A stretch of 46,905 nt of DNA from Nitrososphaerota archaeon (lineage in GTDB: Archaea; Thermoproteota; Nitrososphaeria; Nitrososphaerales; Nitrosopumilaceae): assembly GCA_021325615.1 (NCBI GenBank), contig JAJPGU010000019.1:1-46905 (forward strand). Direction: 5' to 3'. Both the position numbers and the translations under genes were made by a program. The notes beneath the pieces are model-generated. The model made no database searches. It was not told where the DNA came from and saw nothing but the letters and a program-made list of their open reading frames with translations. Shown piece after piece: positions 11,476 to 22,389 of the stretch (its first letter is position 1; every line of letters begins with the position of its first letter).

Positions 11476-13386
11476 ATGCCTTCGATAGATCTGACATGGG
11501 TTATCGGCGGCCCGCAGGGAGGGGGAGTGGAATCTGCCGCAAACATATTTGCCGGGGCCTGCGCCGGATGCGGGCTTAGGGTCTTTGGAAAAAGGGAATA
11601 CTATTCTAATATCAAGGGTGAACACAGCTATTTCGGCGTGAGGGTCGCCGACAGGGAGATCCGCTCAAACGTTAGCGGCATCACCATGCTTGCCGCATTC
11701 GATGCCGAGACACTGTTTAGGCACGCAGACGGTGTATTTGACGACGGCGCGATAGTATACGAGTCCGACCTTGAGGCCGTCAAGGCCGACGAAGTGCCAA
11801 CGCTGGACAAGCCGTTCAAGGCAAGACTTCTGAAACTGCTTGCCTCAAAAAACAAGCCTGCTACCGTAAGGGGAGTGCTCGACCTTGCAAGGGAGAGGGG
11901 AGTTACGCTCTACCCGGTCTCGTTCAAGGCAATGCTTGCAACGCTTGCAGACGAGATGAAGAACCCCTCAATTCGGGGGATGTTCAGGATGCTAAACGTC
12001 CTGTCGGTGTCAGTCTCGATAGGTCTGCTAGGCCTTCCCCCGGATACGCTGCTCAAGTCTGTGGAGGGGGTCTTTTCAAGCAAGCCAAAGGTGGCGGAAA
12101 TGAACCGGAACGCAGCAAATTATGCCTACAATTTCGCGTCAGCCAAGTTCCAGAAATTCAAATACCGCCTTTCCCCAGTACCAAAAAAGCCCAATACAAT
12201 CCTGGTCCAGGGGTTCCAGTCTACAGGCTTTGGCAAGATGGCTGCAGGATGCAGGTTCCAGTCCTATTACCCAATCACGCCAGCATCAGACGAGAGCGTC
12301 TTCCTGGAATCACACGAGACTTTTGATGTTGAAAACAACAGGCCCGGCTCCACCATTATTGTGCAGACTGAGGACGAAATTTCTGCAATAGGGATGATGA
12401 TCGGAGCCGCACTCACAGGCGCGAGGGCAGCCACGAGCACCTCCGGTCCGGGATTTTCCCTCATGGCGGAGGCCTTGGGGTGGGCCGGAATAAACGAGGT
12501 TCCAATCGTGGTAACGCTTTACCAGAGGAGTGGCCCGTCAACCGGCCTGCCGACAAGACACGGGCAGGATGACCTGATGTTTGCAATCCACGCTGGCCAT
12601 GGCGACTTTCCAAGGATAGTCTACGCATCGGGAGACATCGAGGAGGGATTCTATGACACCGCCAAGTGCTTCAATTTTGCCGACACCTACCAGATGCCAG
12701 TAATCCACATGATGGACAAGCTCATCGCAAGCACGGTTGCCACGGTGGACCGGTTTGACACAAATAAGATAACAATCCGTCGCGGCAAGCTGCTGGAAAA
12801 GGTGGAAGGCCAATACCTGAGGTTCAGCCCGTCGCCTGACGGGATTTCCCCGCGATCCCGCTTGGGCCTTGAAAACGGGATATTCTGGAACACGGGCGAT
12901 GAAAGCGACGAGGAGGGACACATCTCCGAGGATCCGGCAAACAGGATCTACAAGATGGACAAGCGCGCAAGGAAGCTCGAGTATGCCCTTGAAACCATTC
13001 CAAGCGAAGACCAGGCAATAAGCCACGGGCTTGCCGAGTTTTGCATCGTGTCCTGGGGTTCCACCAAGGGCCCGATCCTTGACGCCATGGAGATGCTCAG
13101 GAAGGACAACTACAATGTTGGGTTTGTGCAGCTGAAGCTTTTGCAGCCGTTCCCCGCGCCTCTTGTAAAGTCATTGCTGAAGGACGCCAAGACCATAATT
13201 GACATCGAGGCAAATCATTCGGCACAGCTCGGCAGGCTCCTCAACGAGAACCTCGACAGGAAGGTTGATTATTACATCGTCAAGTATACCGGCAGGGCCA
13301 TGACCTGTGATGAAATTTATGATTCAATCAAAAAAATAATAGAAGGCAAGGCAGAAAAGAGGCAGGTGTTGTCATATGGCGTCTAG
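11476..13386 (+). CDS. korA: 2-oxoacid:ferredoxin oxidoreductase, fused gamma-alpha subunit
   Basis: A 636-residue subunit that, with KorB, oxidatively decarboxylates a 2-oxoacid to acyl-CoA and reduces ferredoxin. The N-terminal ~190 residues are the gamma domain (GGPQGGGVESAANIF, KGEHSYFGVRV). The alpha domain follows with YPITPASDES (around 264-273) and TSGPGFSLM, which build the thiamine-diphosphate half-site. This fused order is typical of archaeal two-subunit enzymes. The 3' end overlaps korB by 11 bases, implying coupling. A TTAATATTTGAT box precedes the ATG. 2-oxoglutarate versus pyruvate cannot be settled here. Confidence 0.93.
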   Translation: MPSIDLTWVIGGPQGGGVESAANIFAGACAGCGLRVFGKREYYSNIKGEHSYFGVRVADREIRSNVSGITMLAAFDAETLFRHADGVFDDGAIVYESDLEAVKADEVPTLDKPFKARLLKLLASKNKPATVRGVLDLARERGVTLYPVSFKAMLATLADEMKNPSIRGMFRMLNVLSVSVSIGLLGLPPDTLLKSVEGVFSSKPKVAEMNRNAANYAYNFASAKFQKFKYRLSPVPKKPNTILVQGFQSTGFGKMAAGCRFQSYYPITPASDESVFLESHETFDVENNRPGSTIIVQTEDEISAIGMMIGAALTGARAATSTSGPGFSLMAEALGWAGINEVPIVVTLYQRSGPSTGLPTRHGQDDLMFAIHAGHGDFPRIVYASGDIEEGFYDTAKCFNFADTYQMPVIHMMDKLIASTVATVDRFDTNKITIRRGKLLEKVEGQYLRFSPSPDGISPRSRLGLENGIFWNTGDESDEEGHISEDPANRIYKMDKRARKLEYALETIPSEDQAISHGLAEFCIVSWGSTKGPILDAMEMLRKDNYNVGFVQLKLLQPFPAPLVKSLLKDAKTIIDIEANHSAQLGRLLNENLDRKVDYYIVKYTGRAMTCDEIYDSIKKIIEGKAEKRQVLSYGV

Positions 13387-15439
13387 CATGTCAGACTACA
13401 AGACGGAGGTCCACAACGACTGGTGCCCAGGATGCGTCCTGCCAGACACGCTCCTTCACTGCAACCCGTCCGTAAAGCAGATCCAGCAGCTCAAGGTAGG
13501 TGAAAGGGTTCTTGGGAGGGACGGCTTTTACCACAAGGTAAGCGAGGTAATAACCCACATCCACAGGGGCAAGATATTCAAGCTAGTAACCAAGTGCTTT
13601 GGAACGACATATCTGACCGATGAGCACCCAGTACTTATCGTAAGACGGGAGGATCCAAAACGCCACAATGAAAAATTCGATGCCATCTGGACAAGAGCTG
13701 ATGAGATCGAAGCCCGCGACTACCTAGTCTATCCAATCCAGAAGGAGGAGGTGGACAGGTCTTACATCGAGGTCGATTACCAATTAAGGGGCAAGGACAC
13801 GGTATCAAAACCCCTTCCAAACATGATACCGATTAATGATGACGTATTGAGGCTGATGGGATATTATATAGCAGAGGGCTATGTGCACGATCGCGAGATA
13901 CTTTTCACGTTCAACTCCAAGGAGACAGAATTTCTTGATGACGTTGAATACGTAATGAGAAAGACCTTTGGGCTGTCGGGGACTAGAACCACCAAGCGGA
14001 ATGCAACAACAATTGCCTTCAGCTCCGCGCCCCTTGGAAGGGTTTTCATGGATTGGTTTGGTCATAAATCCTACAACAAAAGGATTCCACATTTTGCGAT
14101 GCTTCTCCCCCCACAAAAGCAGAAGAGCCTCATCCAGGGACTGTGGAGGGGAGACGGCTGGTTCAGCACCGGCCAGATGCGCGGGAATCTCAAGACCGTC
14201 TCGAAGCTTCTCAGCGAGCAGGTAAAGGCGCTTCTCCTGCGACAGGGGGCGGTACCAACAATATCCGTGGAAAAAGCACACGGCATCCATCGCGAGTCGT
14301 ATTCAATCCAAGTAGTAAATGACAGGGATTTTGCAATTCTTTGCAACATACTGGACCAAAAAATAGATCAAATCGTACACGTGGGCAAGCCTCCCTCCTC
14401 CGTTATCACTCCGGATTATGTCATGATTCCTGTGAGGGAGATTGAAAGTTTTGACTATGACGGGCCAGTCTACAACCTAGAGGTAGAGGACGTAAACTCG
14501 TATGTTTCAGAAAATGCAATTCTGCATAACTGCGGCGATTTCGGTATAGTAAACGCAATCCAGATGGCCCTGGCAGAGATGGAAATTCCCCGCCACAAGG
14601 CAGCGATTTTCTCCGGTGTGGGATGCTCGGGCAAGACGTCGCACTATGTCAATGTCTATGGAATCCATACGCTACACGGGAGAGTGCTGCCATTTGCCCA
14701 GGGAGCCAAGCTGGCAAACCCAGAGATGACAGTGGTCGCCGCGGGAGGAGACGGGGACGGCCTTGGTATAGGTGCGGGACACTTTGTCGCTGCGGGGAGG
14801 CGAAACGTGGACATGACCTACCTGATATTCAACAATGCAGTGTACGGCCTGACCAAGGGGCAGGCCTCGCCTACGCTGAAGCTCGGGCTGAAGACCAAGT
14901 CCCTGCCAGAGCCAAACGTAAACCAGTCGGTGAACCCCATAGCGCTTGCCATTGCCAGCGGATTTACATTTGTTGCAAGGGGATATGCGTATGACGTAAG
15001 ACATCTCAAGGACCTGATAATCGCGGCGGTCAGGCACAAGGGTCTCTCCTTCCTTGACGTACTCCAACCCTGCCCCACGTACAATGACATCAACACCAGG
15101 GACTGGTTTGCCGGGATGGACAACCTTGACGAGGTAACGAAAAAGCCCCGTCCAAGGATCTACAAGCTTGAGGACACAGGATACGATCCGGTAGTGCACA
15201 TCGATTCGCCGGAGGAGGAGAACGCCAAGATTGCGCAGGCTATAATCAAGTCAAACGAGTGGGACGAGAAGATCCCGACTGGCATTTTCTACAAGAACGA
15301 GATAATTGCCCCGTATGATGAGAGGATTGCGGACAGGATTCCAAACTATCTTGAAAACCCCCCGGCATACCAGGAAATATCTTCGAACGGCAGGCCGCTT
15401 ACCGACATTACGAAAGTTCTTGATAAGTTGCAGGTCTAG
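13376..15439 (+). CDS. korB: 2-oxoacid:ferredoxin oxidoreductase beta subunit, interrupted by an intein
   Basis: The 687-residue precursor contains a 366-residue intein (residues 20-385), leaving a ~321-residue mature beta subunit of normal size. Extein features: WCPG before and CGDFGIVNA after the intein, which join as WCPGCGDFG, the start of the [4Fe-4S] binding site. GVGCSGKTSHY, the TPP/Mg motif GGDGDGLGIGAGHF and NNAVYGLTKGQASPT follow. Splicing is therefore required to build the cluster motif. It pairs with the overlapping korA upstream. The ferredoxin at 32890 is a candidate electron acceptor. Confidence 0.95.
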   Translation: MASSMSDYKTEVHNDWCPGCVLPDTLLHCNPSVKQIQQLKVGERVLGRDGFYHKVSEVITHIHRGKIFKLVTKCFGTTYLTDEHPVLIVRREDPKRHNEKFDAIWTRADEIEARDYLVYPIQKEEVDRSYIEVDYQLRGKDTVSKPLPNMIPINDDVLRLMGYYIAEGYVHDREILFTFNSKETEFLDDVEYVMRKTFGLSGTRTTKRNATTIAFSSAPLGRVFMDWFGHKSYNKRIPHFAMLLPPQKQKSLIQGLWRGDGWFSTGQMRGNLKTVSKLLSEQVKALLLRQGAVPTISVEKAHGIHRESYSIQVVNDRDFAILCNILDQKIDQIVHVGKPPSSVITPDYVMIPVREIESFDYDGPVYNLEVEDVNSYVSENAILHNCGDFGIVNAIQMALAEMEIPRHKAAIFSGVGCSGKTSHYVNVYGIHTLHGRVLPFAQGAKLANPEMTVVAAGGDGDGLGIGAGHFVAAGRRNVDMTYLIFNNAVYGLTKGQASPTLKLGLKTKSLPEPNVNQSVNPIALAIASGFTFVARGYAYDVRHLKDLIIAAVRHKGLSFLDVLQPCPTYNDINTRDWFAGMDNLDEVTKKPRPRIYKLEDTGYDPVVHIDSPEEENAKIAQAIIKSNEWDEKIPTGIFYKNEIIAPYDERIADRIPNYLENPPAYQEISSNGRPLTDITKVLDKLQV
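13433..14530 (+). mobile_element. Full-length intein with LAGLIDADG homing endonuclease in KorB
   Basis: The intein runs from Cys20 (CVLPDTLL, block A) to His384-Asn385, and the +1 extein residue is Cys386. Block B has Thr81 and His84 (LTDEHPV). Blocks F and G are VYNLEVEDVNSYV and ENAILHN. Both dodecapeptide endonuclease motifs are present with acidic residues: LMGYYIAEG (Glu167) and LIQGLWRGDG (Asp260), so both splicing and homing look intact. The insertion sits between Gly and the second Cys of the CPGC motif. It is a selfish element; nothing suggests degeneration. Confidence 0.95.
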
Positions 15440-19162: not shown

Positions 19163-20437
19163 ATGTTGAACATTACCGAGAAAATTCTGGCACGGGCGTC
19201 AGGAAGGGACAGCGTCTCACCGGACGATGTTGTTTTTGCCAACGTCGACAAGGTAATGGTACACGATGTTTCAGGCCCAGGCGTCCTTGCAGTCTTTGAA
19301 AAACTCAGGAAGAATGGCGTCAAGATTGACAGGTTGCATGACCCAGAAAAAGTCTGGGTGGCTGAGGATCACTTTGTTCCGGCAGCGGACAAGATTTCCG
19401 CCCAGAACGTGGTCCTCCTAACTCAGTTCACAAAGGATTATGGTATACGGAGGCACTTCAAATACGGCATGGGCCAGTACGGCATATGCCATACCCTTTC
19501 GCACGAGGAGGCAATGGTGCTTCCAGGGGAAGTCTATGTGGGCGGGGACTCGCACACCAACACCACAGGTGCCCTCGGAGCATTTGCAGCAGGACTTGGA
19601 CACACAGACGTCGCATACGTCCTGCTAAACGGGAAAATATGGTTCAAGGTGCCAGAAACTCTTTACTTCAAGCTGAACGGCAGGCTGCCCGAATATGCCA
19701 TGGCAAAGGACTTTATCTTGAAAATTATAGGCGACATCGGCACGGACGGGGCTGCGTACAAAACAATGCAGTTCGGAGGGACCGGAATATCGGAAATGTC
19801 CGTAGAGGAAAGGCTTACGCTTACAAACATGACTACGGAGGCGGGCGCAAAAAGCGGGATTATCGAGCCCGATCAGAAAGTACGGGACTATCTAGCCCAA
19901 AGGGGCGCGACGAACTACAGGGAGGTCCATGGGGATCCTGATGCGCAGTACGCCAAGACTTACGAGTATGACGCCTCGGAGATTGAACCAGTTGTGGCAA
20001 AACCATTCTCCCCGGAAAATGTATCTGTTGCAAGAGAACTCTCATCGACGCCCCTTGACAAGGCCTACATAGGCTCGTGTACCGGGGCCAAGCTCGAGGA
20101 CCTGAGGGCTGCCGCAAGAATCCTAAAGGGAAGAACGGTGAAGATAAGGACGGAGGTCCTCCCCGCGGCGATATCGATCTTCAGGAAGGCGATGGATGAG
20201 GGCCTGATAAAGATTTTCATGGATGCGGGCGTGATGGTGGGACCGCCGACATGTGGGGCCTGCTGCGGCGCCCATATGGGAGTGCTTGCAAAGGACGAGG
20301 TCTGCATAAGCACAACAAACAGGAACTTTCCGGGAAGGATGGGGCACGTCGAGTCAAAAACATACCTTGCCTCGCCGCTTGTTGCGGCGGCATCTGCAGT
20401 GACCGGAAAGATTACCGACCCGAGGGACCTCAAATGA
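19163..20437 (+). CDS. leuC: Archaeal-type isopropylmalate/homoaconitate isomerase large subunit
   Basis: A 424-residue aconitase-superfamily subunit of the archaeal (HACN/IPMI) length class. [4Fe-4S] ligands are visible in AYIGSCTGAKLEDL and PPTCGACCGAHMG. GGDSHTNTTGALGAF and TTNRNFPGRMGH are typical active-site segments. It overlaps its small subunit by 4 bases (ATGA at 20434). GTTTTAATTTC lies ~26 bases upstream. A second, bacterial-type pair follows at 20974, so this pair may have a different substrate, for example homoaconitate of the LysW lysine pathway. That is inferred from the small-subunit loop. Confidence 0.92.
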   Translation: MLNITEKILARASGRDSVSPDDVVFANVDKVMVHDVSGPGVLAVFEKLRKNGVKIDRLHDPEKVWVAEDHFVPAADKISAQNVVLLTQFTKDYGIRRHFKYGMGQYGICHTLSHEEAMVLPGEVYVGGDSHTNTTGALGAFAAGLGHTDVAYVLLNGKIWFKVPETLYFKLNGRLPEYAMAKDFILKIIGDIGTDGAAYKTMQFGGTGISEMSVEERLTLTNMTTEAGAKSGIIEPDQKVRDYLAQRGATNYREVHGDPDAQYAKTYEYDASEIEPVVAKPFSPENVSVARELSSTPLDKAYIGSCTGAKLEDLRAAARILKGRTVKIRTEVLPAAISIFRKAMDEGLIKIFMDAGVMVGPPTCGACCGAHMGVLAKDEVCISTTNRNFPGRMGHVESKTYLASPLVAAASAVTGKITDPRDLK

Positions 20438-20973: not shown

Positions 20974-22389
20974 ATGTCTAAAACCTTGTTTGAAAAAATA
21001 TGGGACTCTCACGTGGTCGTAGACGAGGGAAATGGCCGGTCGCTCCTTTATGTGGACAGGCACCTCGTGCACGAGGTAACGTCGCCGCAGGCATTCGACG
21101 GCCTGAGGCTGAACGGAAGAAAGGTCCGCAGGACAGACCTTACGTTTGCGACAATGGATCACAACGTTCCCACGAGCAACAGATCACTGCCGATATTGGA
21201 CCAGACCTCGGCGATGCAGGTAAAGGCGCTTGAGAGGAACTGCAAGGAATTTGGAATCACGCTTTTTGATATTGACAGCCCCGATCAGGGGATAGTGCAT
21301 GTGATAGGCCCAGAGCTTGGGATTACGCTACCGGGGACGACCATAGTGTGCGGGGACAGCCATACATCCACCCACGGAGCATTTGGCGCCCTTGCGTTTG
21401 GGATAGGTACAAGCGATGTCGAGCATGTGCTCGCCACCCAGTGCATATGGATGGAAAAACCAAAAACCTTCGAGATAAGGGTGGAAGGAAAAAGGAGAAA
21501 CCCGCACGCAGTGACGGCCAAGGACATTATGCTTTCGATAATCAAGAAGCTCGGAACTGCGGGCGGGACGGGGGCTATGTTTGAGTACCGAGGCGAGGCA
21601 ATCGAGGACATGACCATGGAGCAGAGGATGACAATCTGCAACATGTCCATAGAGGGGGGTGCAAGGGCGGGACTGGTTGCCCCCGACGAGAAGACATTTG
21701 ACTACCTCAGGGGAAGGCGGTACCTCCCGGACAACTATGAAAAACTTGTGGATTATTGGCGTGAGAACCTGAAGACCGATGCCAATGCAACGTTTGACAG
21801 GTCATTCACACTCCAGGCCGGAGAGATAGCGCCGCAGGTAAGCTGGGGCACCAATCCTGCCATGACGGTGGACGTGACGGAGAGAGTGCCGTTTCCCGAG
21901 GAATATGCAAAGGGGAACCTCGAGGAAGAAAAGGCGGCGGCAAAGGCGCTTCAGTACATGGGCCTCAAGGCGGGCACGCCAGTCATGGAGATTCGGATAG
22001 ACAGGGTCTTCATAGGATCATGCACAAATTCGAGGCTTGAGGATCTCATTGAGGCCTCGCGTGTGGTGAAGGGCAAGAAGGTTTCCGAGGGGGTGAGGGC
22101 CATGGTGGTTCCAGGTTCGCAGCACGTAAAAAAACAGGCCGAGGACCTCGGGCTTGACAGGATCTTCAAGGACGCGGGATTTGAGTGGCGCGAGTCGGGA
22201 TGCAGCATGTGCCTTGGAATGAACCCTGATATCTTGGCAGCGGGGGAGAGATGCGCAAGCACATCAAACCGTAACTTCGAGGGGAGGCAGGGGGCAGGGG
22301 GCAGGACACACCTTGTCAGCCCCGTAATGGCTGCGGCAGCCGCAATAGCGGGACACTTTGTCGACGTGCGGGATATGGATTTGAGCTAG
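20974..22389 (+). CDS. leuC: Bacterial-type 3-isopropylmalate dehydratase large subunit
   Basis: A 471-residue protein, the length and architecture of bacterial LeuC. Cluster ligands are in [14 protein letters not shown] and [32 protein letters not shown] and [20 protein letters not shown] are diagnostic. It catalyses 2-isopropylmalate to 3-isopropylmalate isomerisation in leucine synthesis. A TATA-like ATTATATC lies ~28 bases before the ATG, giving it a promoter separate from the archaeal pair. The small-subunit gene starts directly after its stop. It was probably acquired from bacteria, judged by type only. Confidence 0.95.

Follow-up and report, generated by a model that had tools for sequence, protein, structure and literature searches.

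A probable mobile LAGLIDADG intein at a [4Fe-4S] ligand codon of korB in Nitrososphaerota

The korB locus and anatomy of the intein

The window analyzed here, a 46,905-nucleotide stretch of contig JAJPGU010000019.1 from a Nitrososphaerota archaeon (genome G000), encoded a 2-oxoacid:ferredoxin oxidoreductase on its forward strand. The alpha subunit gene korA (11476-13386, + strand) matched NF041170 with 856 bits as well as Pfam POR_N, POR and PFOR_II, and overlapped the start of korB by 11 bases. The korB precursor open reading frame (13376-15439, + strand) spanned 687 amino acids with no internal stop. Its KorB portions (residues 1-19 and 386-687) matched NCBIfam NF041171 (429.9 bits against a cut-off of 423) together with Pfam TPP_enzyme_C and PFO_beta_C, and the insert between them (residues 20-385) scored above the Pfam cut-offs for Intein_splicing and, in two stretches, LAGLIDADG_3. 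By alignment to intein-free KorBs, the N-extein of 19 amino acids (13376-13432, + strand) ends in HNDWCPG and contains the first cluster ligand, Cys17. The intein of 366 amino acids (13433-14530, + strand) begins with Cys1 followed by VLPDT and ends in SENAILHN at Asn366, an assignment backed by Pfam, the predicted fold and 22 more homologues occupying this site elsewhere in the class. The C-extein, identified by Pfam and NCBIfam matches, runs from the +1 cysteine in CGDFG to the stop codon (14531-15439, + strand) and carries the conserved Cys417 and Cys566, both invariant in alignment. Excising the insert joins the flanks to give HNDWCPGCGDFG, the same sequence as in intein-free relatives. 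A preliminary description of this DNA had reported that a complete intein splits the CPGC motif of KorB at 13433-14530; these coordinates proved exact, with the splicing blocks and LAGLIDADG motifs present. A KorB match was found in 359 of 400 sampled genomes of the class, and most of those listed were intein-free, with a single frame of ~321 codons lacking the insert; we therefore ruled out that the 366 residues belong to ordinary KorB, as intein-free orthologues are the norm.

All residues of a class 1 intein were present: C1, the TXXH of block B (T62-H65), H365, N366 and C386. Block B reads TDEH (13616-13627, + strand), and is followed by the first LAGLIDADG helix (block C; LRLMGYYIAEGYV; 13847-13885, + strand), in which LMGYYIAEG holds the likely catalytic Glu148, and by the second (block E; LIQGLWRGDGWF; 14129-14164, + strand), in which IQGLWRGDG holds the likely catalytic Asp241, both helices being assigned by alignment. 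Block F (FDYDGPVYNLEVED) was located at 14453-14506 on the + strand (DYDGPVYNLEVEDVNSYV), and block G with the +1 residue, ENAILHN/C386 (slashes mark insertion points or splice junctions), at 14510-14533 on the same strand. In an alignment of the 23 same-site inteins, C1, T62, E64, H65, N366 and the LAGLIDADG glycines were invariant, as were G344, V346, L349 and V358 of block F. The fold predicted for the intein (mean pLDDT 88) was that of a HINT domain, with Foldseek matches to the solved intein-endonuclease structures TliVMA, PhoVMA and PI-SceI (best E 2e-24); the model of the whole precursor was of low confidence (pLDDT 69) and its geometry was not read.

The +1 cysteine and KorB function

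In the beta subunit of StOFOR2, Cys12 and Cys15 of a CXGC loop ligate the sole [4Fe-4S] cluster (PMC5020499). Cys386 of KorB, the +1 residue of the intein, aligns with Cys15 of the Sulfolobus tokodaii enzyme (5b46/5b48), and so the +1 nucleophile becomes a cluster ligand, as the preliminary description had expected. The double role of Cys386 as nucleophile and ligand is clear from the sequence. C17, C386, C417 and C566 were all invariant in the KorB alignment, and for the CXGC pair among them the ligand role is backed by the published structure work (PMC5020499). A point absent from the earlier account is that intein Cys1 directly follows WCPG, so that the unspliced precursor again reads WCPGC.

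Splicing would start with an N-S acyl shift at Cys1 and transthioesterification to Cys386, after which Asn366 would cyclize with the help of His365 and an S-N shift would complete the peptide bond, yielding WCPGCGDFG and a mature KorB that could accept its cluster. In this central metabolic enzyme, cluster maturation would have to wait for splicing. KorB was the only PorB/KorB-type beta subunit found in G000 (~96% complete, 1.83 Mb), with no second, intein-free korB as backup at E 1e-3. Since KorB is single copy in this 96%-complete genome, 2-oxoacid:ferredoxin oxidoreductase activity should need splicing, in agreement with the dependence proposed earlier. G000 carries archaeal amoA and is therefore an ammonia oxidizer by gene content; its named relatives are Thaumarchaeota MAG contigs. 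Elsewhere in the window, two Aconitase-family (PF00330) genes lie close together at 19163-20437 (two matching stretches) and 20974-22389.

The inner residues of the CPGC motif vary in some genera (CAGC, CVGC, CSAC), with the intein present or absent (L067, L068, L069, L071, L095, L106, L012, L014). The -2 residue, changed from WCPG to WCAG, WCVG or WCSA in some intein-free alleles, was considered as a source of resistance to invasion and rejected, as two occupied alleles also read WCAG.

Distribution, mobility and decay

Among the 401 class genomes searched, 23 carried an intein at exactly this korB site, and they represent four families: genera g1, g2, g5, g20 and g21 of family f1, g23 of f2, g28 of f3, and g27, g44 and g54 of f4. 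One further carrier lay outside the class (G674/L116). Within the window's own genus, 5 of 31 korB-bearing genomes had the intein, and the suggested comparison of related korB genes did recover empty alleles, which were common among close relatives. Such scattered distribution alongside empty target alleles is what characterizes a homing intein, as does a LAGLIDADG endonuclease with both catalytic acids (E148 and D241). On the KorB extein tree, intein presence required 17-19 changes and was no more clustered than shuffled labels. The KorB of G091 shared 99% identity with intein-free KorBs from the same genus, whereas its nearest intein relative, at 83% identity, came from another genus; DNA identity beside the site was ~90% within 0.3-0.5 kb and ~95% farther out, a drop that may hint at co-conversion. 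The two f2 inteins of G163 and G099 were 98% identical with exteins 91% identical, and in several cross-genus pairs inteins were more alike than exteins (e.g., 85 versus 78% in G135/G359). Within family f1, the intein tree roughly tracks genera and some vertical descent is likely. A scan of viral contigs for a vector returned no relative, and the phage matches listed had <30% identity and unrelated hosts; in neither search did a virus or archaeal phage with a close copy turn up.

Divergence of the endonuclease in the closest unsaturated pair (dN 0.059, dS 0.47) points to purifying selection, and dN/dS was ~0.1 in unsaturated pairs, synonymous sites being saturated in most pairs. A member of the same genus as the window, G218 (L015), encodes a same-site intein of 357 amino acids on a long branch, in which GYMLVAG and GLWMGNG replace GYYIAEG and GLWRGDG; both catalytic acids are thus lost (E to A, D to N) and the splicing blocks are kept. 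This allele fits the decay stage of the homing cycle, which predicts coexisting intact, decaying and empty alleles (PMC8966425), and all three were found for korB among the sampled genomes. The f2 alleles have Lys at the first catalytic Glu position, and these and the f4 alleles of g27 and g44 have GN or SN in place of HN before the cysteine.

Related inteins at other iron-sulfur sites

Profile searches recovered related inteins in other proteins, as well as other inteins of the same genomes, whose junctions and host families we then read. One group of sites immediately precedes cysteines that, in these protein families, ligate or build an Fe-S cluster: YGR/CVFCGLC and CVFCGL/CVDACP in NuoI, ETAC/CSVE and MGA/CAITGG in NuoB, GNP[VI]/CGDL in IscU/NifU, FVCPH/CGEK in ApbC/Mrp, and EG/CSAP and TVR/CDALL in SufB. 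Cysteines of this kind likewise follow the insertion points in radical SAM enzymes (the second or third Cys of CX3CX2C), ABCE1 (CIGCGI/CVKKC) and aconitase (GYGCTT/CIGNSG). Other hosts were zinc ribbons, molybdopterin oxidoreductase (at Cys), RtcB, MCM, Cdc48, VMA, Hel308, SNF2, EndoIV and S-adenosylmethionine synthetase, among others, several of these non-Fe-S hosts (e.g., RtcB, MCM, VMA) being named by eye from the C-flank. By a rough count, 14 of ~34 distinct Cys+1 sites were Fe-S related, a figure that is no measure of enrichment, since the queries favored inteins related to that of korB and since conserved cysteines in general often bind metals. In the intein tree, insertion sites formed separate clades, with all korB inteins in one clade and the IscU inteins adjoining. 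Double inteins only six extein residues apart occurred in NuoI (YGR/CVFCGL/CVDACP) of four genomes (L027, L028, L126 and L128 in G370, G310, G213 and G199). G319 had inteins in KorB, NuoI, NuoB, SufB, a radical SAM enzyme and apparently aconitase (L022, L122, L177, L178, L265, L270), in each case ahead of an Fe-S-related Cys, the aconitase host being confirmed on G096 and read for G319 from the C-flank only. Among the other junctions, the molybdopterin oxidoreductase intein at RSFH/CVTKWS in L136 (G310) and L180 (G375) ends in Asp, not Asn, before the cysteine, and an intein in a cysteine-rich protein without a Pfam match has the junction RCFV/CGKEACPGCPYLSSC (L129 in G305, L173 in G314).

By the Pfam splicing model, G000 itself had three inteins, in korB, an AmmeMemoRadiSam radical SAM enzyme (L274) and an SNF2 helicase (L273). 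The radical SAM gene (G000:C24, ~62443-64425; L274:944-2926, - strand) is split at GCNWL/CKYCQN, the second Cys of CX3CX2C, so that with korB two of the three inteins in this genome sit at Fe-S cysteines. The protein search with the korB intein did not recover the radical SAM intein of G000, whose lineage is therefore distant or separate. The central region of this intein (IVEAKIDIEVEEWRHYDSE...RLRDMTLAANGW) might, as a guess from sequence, be a Vsr/EDxHD-type nuclease and not LAGLIDADG.

Origin and role of the korB intein

Taken together, the element, inserted at the korB codon for the proximal [4Fe-4S] ligand, is very probably a mobile, class-1-type intein with a LAGLIDADG endonuclease, and it looks like an ordinary selfish parasite following the homing cycle. 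To spread, its endonuclease would cut intein-free korB across the WCPG/CGDFG codons and repair would copy the intein in. Three features would favor the site: it belongs to the most conserved DNA of korB, it supplies the cysteine that a Cys+1 intein requires, and an excision that is imprecise costs the enzyme a cluster ligand. The preliminary description raised a possible conditional switch. In such a switch, iron or a cluster bound by Cys17, Cys20 and Cys386, or a Cys1-Cys386 disulfide, would hold the precursor unspliced and redox state or iron would set KorAB activity. Both nucleophiles do lie within the ligand motif, intein Cys1 preserves CPGC in the precursor, and several genomes have KorB, NuoI, NuoB and aconitase interrupted together at Fe-S cysteines; there are also precedents, cited in PMC5874633, in the SufB intein, described as sensing oxidative and nitrosative stress, and in a disulfide between the catalytic cysteines of an intein precursor. 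However, close relatives as a rule have intein-free korB, we found no extra conserved regulatory domain, and scattered presence with an endonuclease that is conserved or decaying, as in a homing element, fits selfish spread without host benefit. We therefore disfavor the switch and consider it quite unlikely.

An insertion that no longer splices, leaving KorB inactive in the window organism, is harder still to reconcile with a frame that is open, splicing residues that are all intact, a KorB that is the sole copy in the genome, and an extein that, in the closest pair open to comparison, is more strongly constrained by purifying selection than the intein; we regard it as very improbable. Several source genomes are MAGs, which could suggest an artifact of assembly or binning, but the same site and intein family recur in many separate genomes, including the single-contig G096, and on contigs JAGWFW010000040.1, DAHUYT010000045.1 and JAJPKL010000038.1, so that such an error is scarcely credible.

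No description of the korB insertion site was found in open-licence papers, and within that literature it is apparently undescribed; the author of the preliminary description had not known of one either. Pairs of occupied and empty alleles within single genera make homing, and any cost or benefit, directly testable. The pattern of insertion at Fe-S cysteines is a more interesting product of this analysis than the idea of a switch. The repeated use of Fe-S ligand cysteines by related inteins may reflect only the need for a conserved +1 Cys or something specific to Fe-S proteins. A very unlikely but wider reading is that several Thermoproteota intein lineages have specialized on cluster-ligand cysteines of the ferredoxin/complex I/TCA electron chain (KorB, NuoI, NuoB and aconitase), and of Fe-S assembly and radical SAM proteins, with the same thiols contested by cluster maturation and splicing; splicing in genomes like that of G319 might then act as a shared redox or iron gate on energy metabolism.

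Comparison with known systems

LAGLIDADG inteins of the TliVMA/PI-SceI class share with the korB intein their HINT and LAGLIDADG architecture, predicted fold and class-1 residues, but differ in host and site, with 13-18% identity in the fold matches. The extein homologues StOFOR1/2 beta of S. tokodaii (5b46-5b48) have the CXGC ligand loop without an intein. The best NCBIfam intein match of the korB insert was the Tes intein family of tetraether lipid synthase (NF045703; 2e-20), whose host is a radical SAM enzyme. The Mycobacterium tuberculosis SufB (Pps1) intein resembles that of KorB in its Cys1 and Cys+1, penultimate His and terminal Asn, and in its position after Gly and before Cys of an Fe-S-related host (PMC8891592), although SufB is a cluster-assembly protein whereas KorB is an oxidoreductase; the SufB intein is reported to be a redox and nitrosative sensor (PMC5874633). 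In the intein tree, the sister clade of the korB inteins (support 80) is formed by inteins in IscU/NifU from other Thermoproteota (L117, L118), which share with them a CV(L/P)PDT start and a /CGD junction but differ in occupying GNP[VI]/CGDL of an Fe-S scaffold protein.
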